A model generated the notes under the pieces. It had not been told where the DNA came from, searched no databases, and saw only the letters and a list, made by a program, of their open reading frames with translations. The position numbers were made by a program, and so were the translations under genes. A DNA stretch of 56,821 nucleotides from Chloracidobacterium sp. (GTDB lineage: Bacteria; Acidobacteriota; Blastocatellia; Pyrinomonadales; Pyrinomonadaceae), in the NCBI GenBank assembly GCA_025362075.1, contig JANYIL010000252.1:1-56821 (forward strand). The letters run 5' to 3'. Below are positions 6,753 through 44,052 of this stretch, one piece after another; the first letter of the stretch is position 1; every line of letters starts with the position of its first letter.

Positions 6753-6765
6753 AATTATCTTTTTT

Positions 6766-6815
6766 GCCACGAATTACACGAATGGCACGAATAAAAAATT
6801 TGTGTAATTCGTGGC
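6766..6815. repeat. family F repeat (CACGAATTA nonamers), gene-less copy
   Basis: The left arm GCCACGAATTACAC (6766-6779) and right arm GTGTAATTCGTGGC (6802-6815) are perfect complements. The left side runs on as CACGAATTA-CACGAATGG-CACGAATAA, three 9-bp units. The ends are the same as those bracketing the GxxExxY gene at 31581-32025. Confidence 0.85.
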
Positions 6816-6828
6816 TAAAACTCCTGTC

Positions 6829-8019: not shown

Positions 8020-8083
8020 AACCACGAAAAGTCACTAAAAATCACTAAACAATTTTTTAGTGTCTTTCGTGCATTTCGTGGTT
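8020..8083. repeat. family F-like inverted repeat (AACCACGAAA type)
   Basis: AACCACGAAA (8020-8029) pairs with TTTCGTGGTT (8074-8083). Inside are CACTAAA units at about ten-base spacing and their complements. It fills the fadA-ybaK gap. Confidence 0.75.
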
Positions 8084-12312: not shown

Positions 12313-12677
12313 CCGATTTTAATGTGGTCGATTCGTCCGGGTGGCTTGAATATCTGGCCGACAGTGACCGCTCCGGCTTATACGCCGGGGCCATCGAGGA
12401 CGCCGCACACCTCATAGTACCTGTGATCTCGATCTACGAGGTTTTTAAAAATGTACTGCGGGCACGCGGCGAGGATGACGCCCTGCAGATTGCGAGCGTC
12501 ATGCAGTCAGGCCTTGTGGTCGATCTTGATACATCGCTCGCTCTGGAGGCTGCCCGACATAAATTACCGTTTGCTGACAGCATTATCTACGCGACCGCGT
12601 TGCGGTATAACGCGACTCTGTGGACGCAGGATGGGGATTTTAACGGCCTCCCAAATGTGCGGTATTTCTCGAATTAG
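12309..12677 (+). CDS. PIN-domain toxin (VapC-like RNase)
   Basis: 122 residues beginning with GTG inside the antitoxin stop. The four acidic PIN residues are visible: Asp in NVVDSSGWLEYLAD, Glu in SIYEVFKN, Asp in LPFADSIIYATAL and Asp in TQDGDF. They form the Mg2+-dependent RNase site. Such toxins cut specific RNAs (often tRNA or rRNA) when the antitoxin is degraded. The pair stands alone between the fad promoter and the alcohol dehydrogenase gene. Confidence 0.92.
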   Translation: MTDFNVVDSSGWLEYLADSDRSGLYAGAIEDAAHLIVPVISIYEVFKNVLRARGEDDALQIASVMQSGLVVDLDTSLALEAARHKLPFADSIIYATALRYNATLWTQDGDFNGLPNVRYFSN

Positions 12678-22201: not shown

Positions 22202-22308
22202 AGGAGCAGCAGTCTCCTCCGCGTCCTCTGCGAAAATCTCTGCGGCCTCTGCGTTTACCTGGCTTTCAACGCTGAGGCCGCTTGAGGAAGACGCAGAGAA
22301 ACGCCGAG
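22202..22308. repeat. family G repeat, copy 2
   Basis: Second copy of the 107-base CTCTGCG-type repeat, same orientation as 19107-19213 and differing at only a few positions. It fills most of the 292-base gap 22056-22347, where no gene is visible. Confidence 0.8.
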
Positions 22309-27463: not shown

Positions 27464-27542
27464 GTCAGAACCGGGAGCGATAGCGACTGGGTTCTTCTCC
27501 TCATGGACGCGGAACCCAGTCGCTATCGCTCCCGGTTCTGAC
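27464..27542. repeat. palindromic element, family A, perfect 31-bp arms
   Basis: The arms 27464-27494 and 27512-27542 are exact complements. Each outer end reads GTCAGAACCGGGAGCGATAG, followed by CGACTGGGTTC. The loop has 17 bases. It separates the stop of the adaptor gene from the start of the transporter gene by itself. Confidence 0.92.
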
Positions 27543-29054: not shown

Positions 29055-29199
29055 CATAATTTAGCATAGTATTTGCGGATTTTACCAGCCATTTTTCCTG
29101 TTTCAGTGACATCTATCCCAGTCGGAAAACCTCACGCAGCGACAAATGGAGTGGAAATCAACTAATATAAAAAACATCCCGAACGATCAGGTCAAAAAT

Positions 29200-31578
29200 A
29201 TGAAACGACTTTCCTTTTTTTCGTTGTCCTTGTGTCTCTGTTGTGCTTTTCTCGCGCTGACCGTCGCCGCCCAGACCGTGCCCGCGCCAAAGGATGTGCT
29301 CGGTTGGACGCCGGGTGACGACCGCAAGCTCGCAAGCTGGGCGCAGGTCGTCGAGTATTTTAAGAAACTTGACGCCGCCAGCGACCGCGTTCAATTTCAG
29401 GAGATCGGCAAGACGACGATGGGTACTCCGTTTGTTTACGCGACGATCTCAAGCCCTGAAAATCTAAAAAACCTTGAAAAATACAAGCAGATCAACGCCA
29501 GGCTGGCCGATCCGCGAACATTCAAATCGAGCGACGCCGAGGCAAAACGGCTGATCGCACAGGGCAAGACGATTGTTGAAATAACGTGCGGCGTTCATTC
29601 GACCGAGGTCGGCAGCTATTTGTCGTCGATGCTGATCGCTTATCGATTAGCCTCCAGCAATGATCCGTATATAAAAAACATCCTCGACAAAACGATCATC
29701 CTGCTTGTACCTTCCTTAAATCCCGACGGCGTGGACATCGTCAACAACTGGTATCAAAAAACGCTCGGCACGCCATACGAAGGCACCGAACCGCCCGAGC
29801 TTTATCACAAATACGTCGGTCACGACGACAACCGCGATTGGTACGCCTTCACGCAGGTCGAGACGCAGCTTACGGTCGATAAAATTCACAACGTCTGGCA
29901 CCCGCAGATCCTCCACGACATCCATCAGCAGGGAGCGAACGGCTCGCGCCTGTTCCTGCCGCCATACATGGAGCCCGTCGAGCCAAACGTGCCAAAACAG
30001 ATCGTCGAGGGCTATACCGAGCTTGGCCGTTATATGGCTGCCGATCTCCGCAAGCAGGGTTTCGAAGGGATAACGACCGATTCGACATACGATGCGTGGA
30101 CGCCTTCGCGAGCGTATTCGCACTATCACGGCGGCGTCCGCATCCTGTCCGAAACAGCCTCGGCAAAGCTCGCGACGCCGATCACCGTCAAATTCGAAGA
30201 CCTTCGCCCCGGCGAGCATTACGACCCGCGAAAAGAAGCCCCAAACTTCGGCCCCGTCTGGAAAGGCGGCGAATGGCACATCGGCGACATCACGCGATAT
30301 ATGACAACCGCCGCGTTTAGCCTGCTGCACAACGCCGCCGATAATCGGGAGCATTGGCTGTCGCGGTTTTACGAGATCGGGAAAGAAGCGGTACGGCCGA
30401 GGAAAGATGGAGAGCTATTTGCGTTAAGGATACGGCCGTCGTTTGAAGGATTTCAGATTGAAAATATATTTGATCGTGCGGGTGTACAGGTGGAAAGCGT
30501 CGCAAGCTCCTCGGCAAATGAAACGCTCCGAACCGGCGACCGCGTCGTTAAAGCTGAACAACCGTATTTCGCATTTGCCAAGGCGCTTTTGGAGCCTCAG
30601 AAATATCCGGATCTTCGCGATTCAGATGGGCATCCGATTCCGCCGTATGACGTTACCGCACATTCGCTTTTTTACCTTATGGATATAGGAGTTCTTCCGA
30701 TTTACGAAAGCTTTGATACATATTCTGGCAGATCCGGCCTCGGAAACGGCTCCGACGATAATTCTCGTTGCCGTGGGGTTCTAAATTATGCGACATATCG
30801 ATCATATGTCCCGTCAATCGACGAAGGGTGGACCCGCTGGGTAGTCGAGAGTTATGATCGGATGATCTCAAAACAAAAATATTGCAGCTCTGAGCATCAA
30901 TCGCTTTCTAATCGTCAAATTACGGGACAAGGCCTATCAAATAAATTAAATGTAATAATCTTTCCCGATCAACCACCCGCTCAGATCCTCAACGGCTATG
31001 CAAAAGGCTCGATGCCGGATGAATACGCGGGCGGCGTTGGTCAGACAGGCGTTGAGAATCTCAAAAAATTTGTCGAGAACGGCGGAACGCTCGTCTTTCT
31101 AAACCGCTCGTCCGATTTTGCCATTGAGCAGTTCAATCTGCCAATAAAAGACGTTACAAAGGGTCTCGCCCGCAAGGATTTCTACATCCCCGGCTCGATC
31201 CTCCGCACCGAGCTTGATACGACCTCCCCGATCGCCAGAGGAATGCCTAAGGAGTCAATCGCGTGGTTTGAGAACGGACCGGTGTTTGAGGTTGGGAGTT
31301 CCGGCTTTAGCCGGCCTTCCCCCGCAGGAGGGCCGCCTGAAGGCGGAACTCCGAACGGCGGAATGCCTGAGATCCGCGTCATCGCCCGCTACCCGTCCGA
31401 CCCGTCCAAGATCCTCCTCTCCGGCTGGGCGCTCGGAGCGGAGAAAATCGCAGGCAAAGCCGCGCTCGTAGAGGTTCGCATGGGCAAAGGCAAGATTATC
31501 CTCTTTGGCTTTCGCCCGCAGTACCGCGGACAGTCGTTGGCTACCTATCCGCTGCTGTTCAATGCTATAAGTCAGTAA
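29200..31578 (+). CDS. secreted M14-family zinc carboxypeptidase-like protein with in-frame palindrome
   Basis: 792 residues from ATG 29200 (MKRLSFFSLS, signal peptide ending at about VAAQ). The M14 zinc ligands are H133 and E136 in CGVHSTEVGSY and a later His in ILHDIHQQGANGSRLFLPP; GGVRILSETASAK probably carries the catalytic Glu. It would remove C-terminal amino acids in the periplasm or outside. The long C-terminal part has a Rossmann-like domain (KLNVIIFPDQPPAQ, FVENGGTLVFLNRSSDF). Residues about 698-719 (SSGFSRPSPAGGPPEGGTPN) are encoded by a family B palindrome at 31291-31356, 66 bases or 22 codons. The insert is absent from what I know of the family's conserved regions. Confidence 0.87.
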   Translation: MKRLSFFSLSLCLCCAFLALTVAAQTVPAPKDVLGWTPGDDRKLASWAQVVEYFKKLDAASDRVQFQEIGKTTMGTPFVYATISSPENLKNLEKYKQINARLADPRTFKSSDAEAKRLIAQGKTIVEITCGVHSTEVGSYLSSMLIAYRLASSNDPYIKNILDKTIILLVPSLNPDGVDIVNNWYQKTLGTPYEGTEPPELYHKYVGHDDNRDWYAFTQVETQLTVDKIHNVWHPQILHDIHQQGANGSRLFLPPYMEPVEPNVPKQIVEGYTELGRYMAADLRKQGFEGITTDSTYDAWTPSRAYSHYHGGVRILSETASAKLATPITVKFEDLRPGEHYDPRKEAPNFGPVWKGGEWHIGDITRYMTTAAFSLLHNAADNREHWLSRFYEIGKEAVRPRKDGELFALRIRPSFEGFQIENIFDRAGVQVESVASSSANETLRTGDRVVKAEQPYFAFAKALLEPQKYPDLRDSDGHPIPPYDVTAHSLFYLMDIGVLPIYESFDTYSGRSGLGNGSDDNSRCRGVLNYATYRSYVPSIDEGWTRWVVESYDRMISKQKYCSSEHQSLSNRQITGQGLSNKLNVIIFPDQPPAQILNGYAKGSMPDEYAGGVGQTGVENLKKFVENGGTLVFLNRSSDFAIEQFNLPIKDVTKGLARKDFYIPGSILRTELDTTSPIARGMPKESIAWFENGPVFEVGSSGFSRPSPAGGPPEGGTPNGGMPEIRVIARYPSDPSKILLSGWALGAEKIAGKAALVEVRMGKGKIILFGFRPQYRGQSLATYPLLFNAISQ
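31291..31356. repeat. palindromic element, family B variant, inside the M14 gene
   Basis: The left arm starts GTTGGGAGTTCCGGCTTTAG and the right arm ends AAGGCGGAACTCCGAAC. The arms are complementary with about four mismatches. Length 66, a multiple of three, and the frame is kept. Confidence 0.75.
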
Positions 31579-31580
31579 GA

Positions 31581-32025
31581 TTTTTGCCACGAATTACACG
31601 AATAACACGAATGGAAGAAAGCATTTTATATAAAGATCTCTCATATAAAATAGTTGGCCTTGCCATGCAGGTTCATTCCGAATTGGGGTTTGGGTTTCTT
31701 GAGAAAGTCTATGAAAATGCCCTGATGGTCCTATTTGAGGAAAATGGAATCAAAGCTATCCAGCAGGTGCCGATTCTCGTCCCATTTCACGGAAAAATAG
31801 TTGGAGAATATGTTGCCGATATAGTTGTCGAGGATTCCATTATTATCGAACTCAAAGCCCTTGATCGAATAGCCGAGATTCACAAAGCCCAAACACTCAA
31901 CTATCTAAAAGCCACGAGCTATCGACTTGCCCACCTGATAAATTTTGGTAAGTACAAATTAGAGTACGACCGTCTCGTCCTGTAAACTCCTTATTCGTGC
32001 CATTCGTGTAATTCGTGGCAAAAAA
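31581..32025. mobile_element. candidate element: GxxExxY gene bracketed by 23-bp inverted repeats (family F)
   Basis: TTTTTGCCACGAATTACACG with AAT (31581-31603) and its exact complement (32002-32024) flank a single gene. Each side continues with further CACGAAT nonamers. The gene fills all the space between the repeats. A gene-less copy with the same ends is at 6766-6815. No target-site duplication was identified and no transposase is encoded, so mobility is inference. Confidence 0.45.
31611..31985 (+). CDS. GxxExxY protein, PD-(D/E)XK-nuclease-like
   Basis: 124 residues from ATG 31611, whose A is the base after the third repeat nonamer. The name-giving motif is G28-F-L-E31-K-V-Y34. Next comes a nuclease-like core: D70 in VGEYVADIVVEDS and E80-L-K82 in IIIELKAL, the spacing of a PD-(D/E)XK active site. 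The conserved HKAQTLNYLKATSYRLAHLI helix and the LINFG strand follow. The biochemical function of the family is unestablished. An earlier in-frame ATG at 31584 would translate the repeat itself (PRITRITR), a frequent artefact in this family. Repeat arms lie directly before and after it. Confidence 0.88.
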   Translation: MEESILYKDLSYKIVGLAMQVHSELGFGFLEKVYENALMVLFEENGIKAIQQVPILVPFHGKIVGEYVADIVVEDSIIIELKALDRIAEIHKAQTLNYLKATSYRLAHLINFGKYKLEYDRLVL

Positions 32026-32031
32026 TTCTTA

Positions 32032-33321
32032 ATGAAAGAAGACATACAAGAAACACGCCTCGCAAATGGCCTGACAATTCTAACCGACCGAATGCCCGGA
32101 GTAAGGTCTGCTACGCTCGGGTTCTTTTTCCGCGTCGGTGCCCGGCACGAGCCAGCGGAACTGCATGGCATATCTCATTTTATCGAGCATACTGTCTTCA
32201 AAGGCACGACGAAACGCTCCGCGCTAGAGATTGCGATCGAAACCGACAGTTTAGGCGGTAACCTCGATGCTTTTACGACGCACGAAGAGACCGGCTTTGC
32301 GATCAAGGTCATCGACGACCGCGTCCAACAGGCGTTCGACCTGATCGCCGATATTCTCACAAATCCGCGTTTTGACGAGGCCGACCTGAAAAGCGAGCAA
32401 CGCGTCATCATCGAGGAAATGAAGATGATCGACGATTCGCCGGAGGACTATCTGGGTGAGATCTTTAGCGAGGGACTTTTCCCGGATCATCCCTTGGGCA
32501 TGTCGATCGCGGGAACGCCAAAAACGGTACGGAGTTTTAACCACGAAGTCACACGAAGGTATCACGAAGATGTTTTTAACGCATCAAATCTTGTCATAAC
32601 GGCGGCGGGGAATGTTGATCATGAGCAGATCGTGGAACTGGCGTCAGCCGTTTGGAGTTCCAACTTTAGTTGGCAAATCGGCGCGAAAGGCCAGCTAAAG
32701 CTGGAACTCCAAACGCCGACCCTCGCGGCTCCGATATTAATCAAGCAAAACAAAAACCTCGAACAAGCTCATCTCGTAATCGCAACACCGCTCGTGTCGG
32801 CGACCGACGAGCGGCGATATGCGGCCGACGTATTGGCAAATATTATAGGCGGCGGCACGTCGAGCCGCCTCTGGCAAAAGGTCCGTGAAGAACGCGGCCT
32901 GGCGTACAGCGTGGGTGCCTCGGCCGTTTCGTATCAGGATTGCGGAATGTTTTCGATATTTGCCGCGACTTCGCCAGATCAGGTCGAAGAGGTTGTCGAT
33001 CTCTCGATTGCCGAAATGCAAAGCGTGGTACGCGATGGCGTAACCGAGGATGAACTCGAACTCGCCAAACAGCAGGCTGTCGCCTCGATCCTGCTCAGCC
33101 TCGAGGATTCCGCCGCACGGGCCGCGACGCTCGCCCAATCAGAAATGACGCACGGTCGGCAAATATCCGTCGAAGAGACGGTCGCCAAGCTAGACGCCGT
33201 TACCGTCAACGAGATTCAGAATATAGCCACCGAATTTTTCGTGACCGAGAATGTGGCGTTTGCCGCACTGGGTGATTTAAAGAACTTAGTAATTGACCGT
33301 GAGCGACTAAGAATTAATTAA
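32032..33321 (+). CDS. M16 family zinc peptidase with in-frame palindrome
   Basis: 429 residues, the size of processing-peptidase-like bacterial M16 proteins. The inverted zinc motif H49-F-I-E52-H53 (HGISHFIEHTVFKG) and the downstream Glu in EQRVIIEEMKMIDDSPED make the active site of the N-terminal half. The C-terminal half carries the R/Y pattern (SSRLWQKVREERGLAYSVGA). It degrades peptides, probably in the cytoplasm or periplasm; no signal peptide is seen. Residues about 207-228 (VWSSNFSWQIGAKGQLKLEL) are written by a family B palindrome in the linker between the domains. A stretch at 32539-32571 also resembles CACGAA repeats. Confidence 0.92.
   Translation: MKEDIQETRLANGLTILTDRMPGVRSATLGFFFRVGARHEPAELHGISHFIEHTVFKGTTKRSALEIAIETDSLGGNLDAFTTHEETGFAIKVIDDRVQQAFDLIADILTNPRFDEADLKSEQRVIIEEMKMIDDSPEDYLGEIFSEGLFPDHPLGMSIAGTPKTVRSFNHEVTRRYHEDVFNASNLVITAAGNVDHEQIVELASAVWSSNFSWQIGAKGQLKLELQTPTLAAPILIKQNKNLEQAHLVIATPLVSATDERRYAADVLANIIGGGTSSRLWQKVREERGLAYSVGASAVSYQDCGMFSIFAATSPDQVEEVVDLSIAEMQSVVRDGVTEDELELAKQQAVASILLSLEDSAARAATLAQSEMTHGRQISVEETVAKLDAVTVNEIQNIATEFFVTENVAFAALGDLKNLVIDRERLRIN
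32650..32714. repeat. palindromic element, family B, inside the M16 gene
   Basis: The arms 32650-32674 and 32690-32714 (GTTTGGAGTTCCAACTTTAG and its near complement, two mismatches) flank a 15-base loop. The intergenic copy at 43985 is nearly the same. Confidence 0.85.
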
Positions 33322-33386
33322 CCACGAAATAGCACGAAAACTGCACTAAAAAATTTCGTGTACCTTTTGTGTAATTTAGTGGTTAA
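33318..33386. repeat. family F-like inverted repeat (TTAACCAC ends)
   Basis: TTAACCAC (33318-33325) and GTGGTTAA (33379-33386) enclose CACGAAA, CACTAAA units and complements. It fills the gap between the convergent M16 and queC genes and overlaps the M16 stop. Confidence 0.7.
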
Positions 33387-39349: not shown

Positions 39350-39432
39350 CCACAAAAGGCACAAAAGACGCAAAAAAGAGTTAGTGATGTTTGGTTGAAA
39401 GTTTTATTTTGCGCTTTTTGTGCCTTTTTCCG
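39350..39432. repeat. family I inverted repeat (CACAAAAGG type)
   Basis: GCCACAAAAGGCACAAAAGA (39350-39369) is followed after an AT-rich centre by a partly complementary GCGCTTTTTGTGCCTTTTTC (39411-39430). It fills the gap before the enoyl-CoA hydratase gene. Confidence 0.65.
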
Positions 39433-43984: not shown

Positions 43985-44052
43985 GTTTGGAGTTCCAGCT
44001 TTAGCTGGCCTCCGACTCGGCGAAGAGGCCAGCTAAAGCTGGAACTCCAAAC
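43985..44052. repeat. palindromic element, family B, perfect 27-bp arms
   Basis: Left arm 43985-44011 (GTTTGGAGTTCCAGCTTTAG, then CTGGCCT) and right arm 44026-44052 are exact complements with a 14-base loop. It sits between an MFS gene and a convergent gene. Confidence 0.92.

Follow-up and report, generated by a model that had tools for sequence, protein, structure and literature searches.

Genes of the GxxExxY family were found packaged between inverted arms made of short tandem units, and hairpins built from the same units are scattered through the genome without a gene. Given that the gene lies nearly always within its own inverted repeats and that matching hairpins are dispersed, the arrangement looks like an undescribed selfish element. 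The reading that we consider probable is that of a promoterless selfish element of about 430-600 bp centred on a nuclease, in which the protein would recognise both the arms around its gene and the hairpins. The starting point was one such element in a stretch of 56,821 nucleotides of Chloracidobacterium sp., hereafter called the window.

The element in the window is a 454-bp insert (31577-32030) that separates two co-directional peptidase genes, and within it a gene of 124 codons is enclosed by a left and a right arm. The upstream host gene encodes an M14 zinc carboxypeptidase (29146..31578, plus strand) and the downstream one an M16 peptidase (32032..33321, plus strand) that starts 1 base past the right edge; the GxxExxY/PDDEXK_3 nuclease gene between them (31611..31985, plus strand) encodes 124 aa. 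The arms are about 36 bp each, are inverted relative to each other and contain three CACGAAT units apiece. The left arm (31577..31612, plus strand) reads AAGATTTTT-GC-CACGAATTA-CACGAATAA-CACGAAT, with the three units in tandem, and overlaps both the M14 stop codon and the nuclease start codon. The right arm (31993..32030, minus strand) is the left arm inverted, with GCCACGAATTACACGAATGGCACGAAT on the minus strand plus the mirrored edge AAGAATTTTTT. The conserved edges of the element reach to 31577 on the left (AAGA, which shares bases with the TAA stop codon of the M14 gene) and to 32030 on the right (TTCTT), and those of the left arm resemble the edges of the gene-less hairpins. The initial annotation had described 23-bp perfect inverted repeats around the gene, and these were recovered as a perfect 23-nt stretch inside longer arms (31581-31612 and 31993-32024) that are 94% complementary over 32 nt. 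It had also placed the gene start one base after the left repeat, which proved incorrect since the ATG at 31611 falls within the third left unit, and the gene end 16 bases before the repeats, a distance that holds from the stop at 31985 to the perfect 18-mer but not to the innermost right unit, which is 7 bases away. No Rfam match was obtained at the element. The single nonamer was not significantly enriched in the window (22 occurrences versus 15.9 expected, 1 mismatch allowed), and the signal resides in the tandem arrangement and at the genome-wide level rather than in the single nonamer within the window.

The product of the window gene was matched to PF13366 of Pfam (E = 3.6e-38, 130.9 bits against a cut-off of 22) and to TIGR04256 of NCBIfam (E = 3.9e-39, 133.6 bits against a curated cut-off of 35). 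The GxxExxY motif corresponds to G28, E31 and Y34, and the residues of the PD-(D/E)XK site, D70, E80-x-K82, Q94 and Y98, are nearly invariant among 139 sequences and intact in the window protein. No sequence relative of this protein is present in the PDB, and the nearest solved fold to its AlphaFold2 model (pLDDT 96) was that of the Cas4 protein SSO0001 (Foldseek E 6e-4; VIA Z 9.8 over 98 residues, 3.2 A). Holliday-junction resolvases (1gef, Z 7.0) were also in the fold list, and no family was assigned from them because such Z values are common. Profile searches gave only PDDEXK_3/GxxExxY for the window gene and no known transposase domain (DDE, HUH, serine or tyrosine recombinase). Where dS could be measured, dN/dS in orthologous pairs was mostly 0.04-0.12 and at the highest 0.25, which places the protein under strong purifying selection. 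The low dN/dS together with the kept catalytic residues indicates that it is active in some role visible to selection.

Six matches to the family were found in the genome from which the window comes (G000), representing five loci because one gene is split by a frameshift, and all five lie between inverted arms, each with its own flavour of unit: CACCGAT/CACAGAT/AACGGAT, CGCAGAG, CACTAAA/CACGAAA, CACGAAT (the window element) and CGCGAAT/AACGAAT. The 18-mer GCCACGAATTACACGAAT occurs in 40 copies (at most 1 mismatch) in this 3.9-Mb genome versus 0 for a reversed-pattern control, and the window flavour is also seen in about 20 hairpins, 50-60 bp long, that contain no gene. One of these, already noticed in the initial annotation at 6766-6815, extends over 6761..6820 (unstranded, as are the following two) between a thiolase and an acyl-CoA dehydrogenase gene. 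Two further copies had been regarded as degraded relatives, at 8020 and 33318; they are instead hairpins of a second flavour (CACGAAA/CACTAAA), at 8020..8083 (AACCACGAAA..CACTAAA) and 33320..33384 (AACCACGAAATAGCACGAAAACTGCACTAAA), and match the arms of another GxxExxY gene of this genome (L003). Other palindromes were also noted in the window. A tandem-unit palindrome or arm of other flavours is present at 39354-39428 and 22284-22304 (AAAAGGCACAAAAGACGCAAAA; GAGGAAGACGCAGAGAAACGC), and a separate set of GC-richer palindromes with the look of classical REP sequences (GTCAGAACC...GGTTCTGAC and GGAGTTCC...GGAACTCC) lies at 27464-27542, 43985-44052, 32649-32715, 156-253 and 31291-31356.

The general link between gene and repeat, which had been put forward as a test, was examined at GxxExxY loci drawn from a collection of 85,000 species plus relatives of the source genome. 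For each gene the 180 bp on its upstream side were compared with the 180 bp on its downstream side, and a locus was counted as having arms if the best inverted match scored at least 12. Inverted arms were present at 76% of 112 GxxExxY loci, compared with 4.7% of mismatched pairs and 5.7% of 88 neighbour genes, and within the genus alone at 79% of 84 loci, compared with 7.6% of mismatched pairs. Small multicopy PIN genes of the same genomes had arms at 1 of 30 loci, so that all controls fell at 3-8% and the link was borne out. About one quarter of the GxxExxY loci were without arms by this 180-bp test. The listed loci span Bacteroidota, Planctomycetota, Acidobacteriota, Chloroflexota, Pseudomonadota and one Methanophagales archaeon, the arms of the latter scoring 11, just below the threshold of 12; the association is broader than first proposed. 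The median element length was 503 bp. The reading frame is open through the arm in 40 of 85 loci, which makes plausible the suggestion that misannotated N-termini of this family translate the repeat. A PIN-domain gene is present in the window itself (12324-12644), and up to 28 PIN matches occur in this genome; the PIN loci tested had no arms.

The GxxExxY gene runs parallel to both neighbours at 93 loci and opposite to both at 6 (53 to 0 in the genus), compared with 6 with and 5 against for PIN genes, and this same-strand bias suggests that the genes are probably expressed from host transcripts and promoterless. The strong bias would also fit an action at the RNA level like that of the intervening sequences (IVS) of 23S rRNA, in which the arms would pair in the polycistronic RNA and RNase III would excise the element or set mRNA ends; the tolerance of operons would then come from RNA cutting, and the nuclease would have another role or act on copied nucleic acid. 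The RNA of the window element is predicted to fold with its arms paired (-129.6 kcal/mol, z -5.5), that is, with complementary ends pairing around one ORF as in an IVS. Its size is near that of the Coxiella IVS, 428 nt in length, in which an S23p ORF lies between complementary ends (inverted repeats) and which is excised by RNase III (PMC4990558). Given that no described relative of this layout other than the Coxiella IVS was found, an RNA-level role stays the main rival. It also gains from the packaging of the S23/IVP family in these genomes: PF05635 genes (23S rRNA IVP, a four-helix bundle) located outside rRNA had inverted arms at 27 of 30 loci (L292-L321), with a median score of 20.5. IVP genes number up to 17 per genome in this set, with 15 matches in G000, and 21 run with their neighbours and 1 against. 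Their arms are made of tandem 7-10-bp units unlike those of GxxExxY, e.g. AGTTACGG, GTGGTCA and AAGTCTGGA. IVP and GxxExxY are unrelated families with the same packaging and other units, and the parallel suggests a shared lifestyle of promoterless elements in host operons.

We nevertheless consider the RNA-level explanation unlikely, because the predicted fold of the nuclease resembles DNA nucleases, the flavour of the arms tracks the nuclease lineage, and mismatches between arms are tolerated in spacers and not in units, which looks like reading of the units by a protein. Between the two arms of one element the unit positions agree at 90% and the spacers at 56%, and when inner spacers were compared between the two arms of window-flavour hairpins, agreement was no higher than after shuffling. 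Since the units are conserved between arms and the spacers are not, unit reading is suggested rather than selection for an unbroken stem. Protein identity and arm similarity were correlated (Mantel rho 0.33 overall and 0.47 in one genus, with pairs of similar outer flanks removed), the null having a standard deviation of 0.02 and 0.05 and largest permuted values of 0.09 and 0.14, respectively. The seventh, last base of the unit (T, G or A) required 6 changes on the protein tree versus a mean of 34 and a minimum of 30 after shuffling, and T-type and G-type units are both present within one genus. Judged from these comparisons, arm sequence follows the protein lineage and not the host. Pairs with more than 70% protein identity mostly have the same arms although their sites are unrelated, which indicates that gene and arms travel as one unit. 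Linkage alone could yield such co-divergence, and the correlation therefore supports a unit of inheritance and is not proof of binding. Protein columns suggestive for the base specificity of the unit were noted, with few independent base switches.

The number of hairpins was compared with the presence of a matching gene. Window-flavour 18-mers number 40 in G000 and 21 in G024, the two genomes with an intact matching gene, versus 1-2 in G005 and G007, where the matching gene carries a stop, and 0-11 in the remaining genomes. The ACAGGAT flavour was found in 5-26 copies in five genomes with the gene and at a median of 0 in those without it (p = 0.003), although two genomes have many such hairpins with no matching gene detected (28 in G000 and 40 in G008), and for a third flavour, CCGCGAAT, copy number was unrelated to gene presence. 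A direct case of a gene-bearing copy internally deleted to a hairpin is seen in the gap between two genes that we take, from reading of the flanks, to be sufD and sufS: G019 has a full gene element, G017 has both arms intact with the first codons only, and G009 has another hairpin. The picture of an autonomous element with non-autonomous derivatives, drawn in the initial annotation, thus gained support from the flavour-matched hairpins, from this one internal-deletion intermediate and from the recurrence of gene plus arms at unrelated sites.

Comparison of sites across related species revealed different occupants in the same gaps. The thiolase/acyl-CoA dehydrogenase gap contains CACGAAT hairpins in G000 and G020, a CACAGAG hairpin in G023, and CGCGGAG/CGCCGAG-type hairpins in G007 and G012; in G015 it is nearly empty, at only 35 bp. 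The M14/M16 gap is occupied by the gene element in G000 and by AACGCGGAT hairpins in G015 and G018, and in G004 it lacks all of these repeats. G024 and G007 have a CACGAAT-flavour element after apparently the same M14 gene end, and a locus of G005 (L187) matches the same flank. At another gap in the sister pair G019/G009, one species has a gene element and the other a hairpin of another flavour. Several element sites are common to species that are about 70-75% identical in DNA, and since many sites are shared by distant species turnover is slow. Neither a target-site duplication nor an empty site at the level of strains could be read from these comparisons: the gaps of sister species differ, but their intergenic DNA is too diverged or has already been replaced. 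Some loci had unusual arrangements. In the thiolase gap of G023 (L240) an arm of CGCAGAT flavour lies inside the CACAGAG hairpin, a possible nested insertion. After the thiolase stop in G011 and G014 (L246, L248) an unrelated small ORF (MEEKIRIDLSKDEAIVLFEFLSSF...) begins immediately beyond a CGCAGAG-type arm; it may be cargo or represent a third family with this packaging. At L285 (G010:C25, about 560-1430) an ORF of about 250 residues lies between two CACGAAT hairpins, and its start resembles that of the gene after the second hairpin, an apparent hairpin-bounded duplication.

The purifying selection on the protein, the long-kept sites and the position of an arm directly at the start codon would be expected of an autoregulated host gene, in which the arms are operators of a useful (e.g. 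defensive) nuclease and the hairpins non-mobile regulatory or target sites. This is quite improbable given that the gene is patchy among the relatives (0-10 copies per genome, many of them broken, and zero in G004 and G022), that inverted arms lie on both sides of it and that sister species have different flavours in one gap. That some other enzyme moves the palindromes and small genes are trapped between them is very improbable, because flavour tracks the GxxExxY lineage at depth and the unrelated small multicopy PIN genes lack arms, even though similar hairpins can have other genes next to or between them (the small ORF after one arm in L246; the 250-residue ORF in L285).

In the layout observed, a Cas4/RecB-like PD-(D/E)XK gene is enclosed by inverted arms, each with about three units of 7 bp set apart by spacers of 2-3 bp. 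If the gene and its arms are a nuclease-centred selfish element, the nuclease gene would be transcribed from the upstream host gene and the protein would recognise units of its own flavour, in the two arms as well as in the hairpins. It might then cut the DNA of the element or hairpin, the substrate perhaps being an extruded cruciform or lagging-strand DNA, and cutting could help gene-bearing copies and hairpins to spread or persist in short intergenic gaps. Any movement might proceed by copy-out, by gap repair or through the resolution of recombination. A wider and more tentative proposal, to which we give somewhat less than even weight, is that bacteria and archaea harbour a class of selfish elements whose single small non-transposase protein reads co-diverging inverted arrays of tandem 7-bp units and spreads itself and hairpins by an undescribed mechanism, with GxxExxY as the case described here and IVP as a parallel. 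GxxExxY is a very common unexplained annotation, and hairpins of the CACAGAG/CACGGAT type are common unexplained intergenic repeats; the link between gene and repeat gives the family a probable substrate and the hairpins a probable maker, and dozens of naturally varied pairs of protein and site could be used for work on specificity. Among the openly available journal papers searched, none was found that ties GxxExxY or IVP to repeats of this kind outside rRNA.

Several known systems share parts of this organization. Like insertion sequences and MITEs, the elements have inverted ends, one gene and internally deleted non-autonomous copies, but the gene has no known transposase fold, the ends are tandem units and no target duplication could be read from the diverged gaps. 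The window element is not a known IS or MITE. With the Cas4/RecB nucleases the protein shares the predicted fold and the D, ExK and QxxxY residues, but it is only about 124 aa long and has no CRISPR or helicase partner within the window. The 23S rRNA IVS (PMC4990558) is similar in being an element of about 430 bp with complementary ends around one small ORF within host transcripts, whereas the window element lies between M14 and M16 protein genes and not in 23S rRNA, encodes an unrelated nuclease and has tandem-unit arms. In REP/REPIN sequences with RAYT, short and often paired intergenic palindromes flank one related gene kept by selection and non-autonomous copies accumulate (PMC3116915, PMC3733652). 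The resemblance to this system pointed out in the initial annotation holds for the palindromes, which flank the GxxExxY gene and are dispersed in forms related to the ends of the gene copy, but not for the enzyme: the sole gene between the window arms encodes PDDEXK_3, a PD-(D/E)XK protein with a Cas4/RecB-like predicted fold and no HUH domain, whereas RAYT is a Y1 HUH transposase. The arms also differ in being tandem 7-bp units with many flavours per genus, and the GTAG/CGTC tag is absent at the foot of the window palindrome (AAGATTTTTGCC). By analogy, the element would work most like REP/REPIN with RAYT, yet it is not a member of that system.
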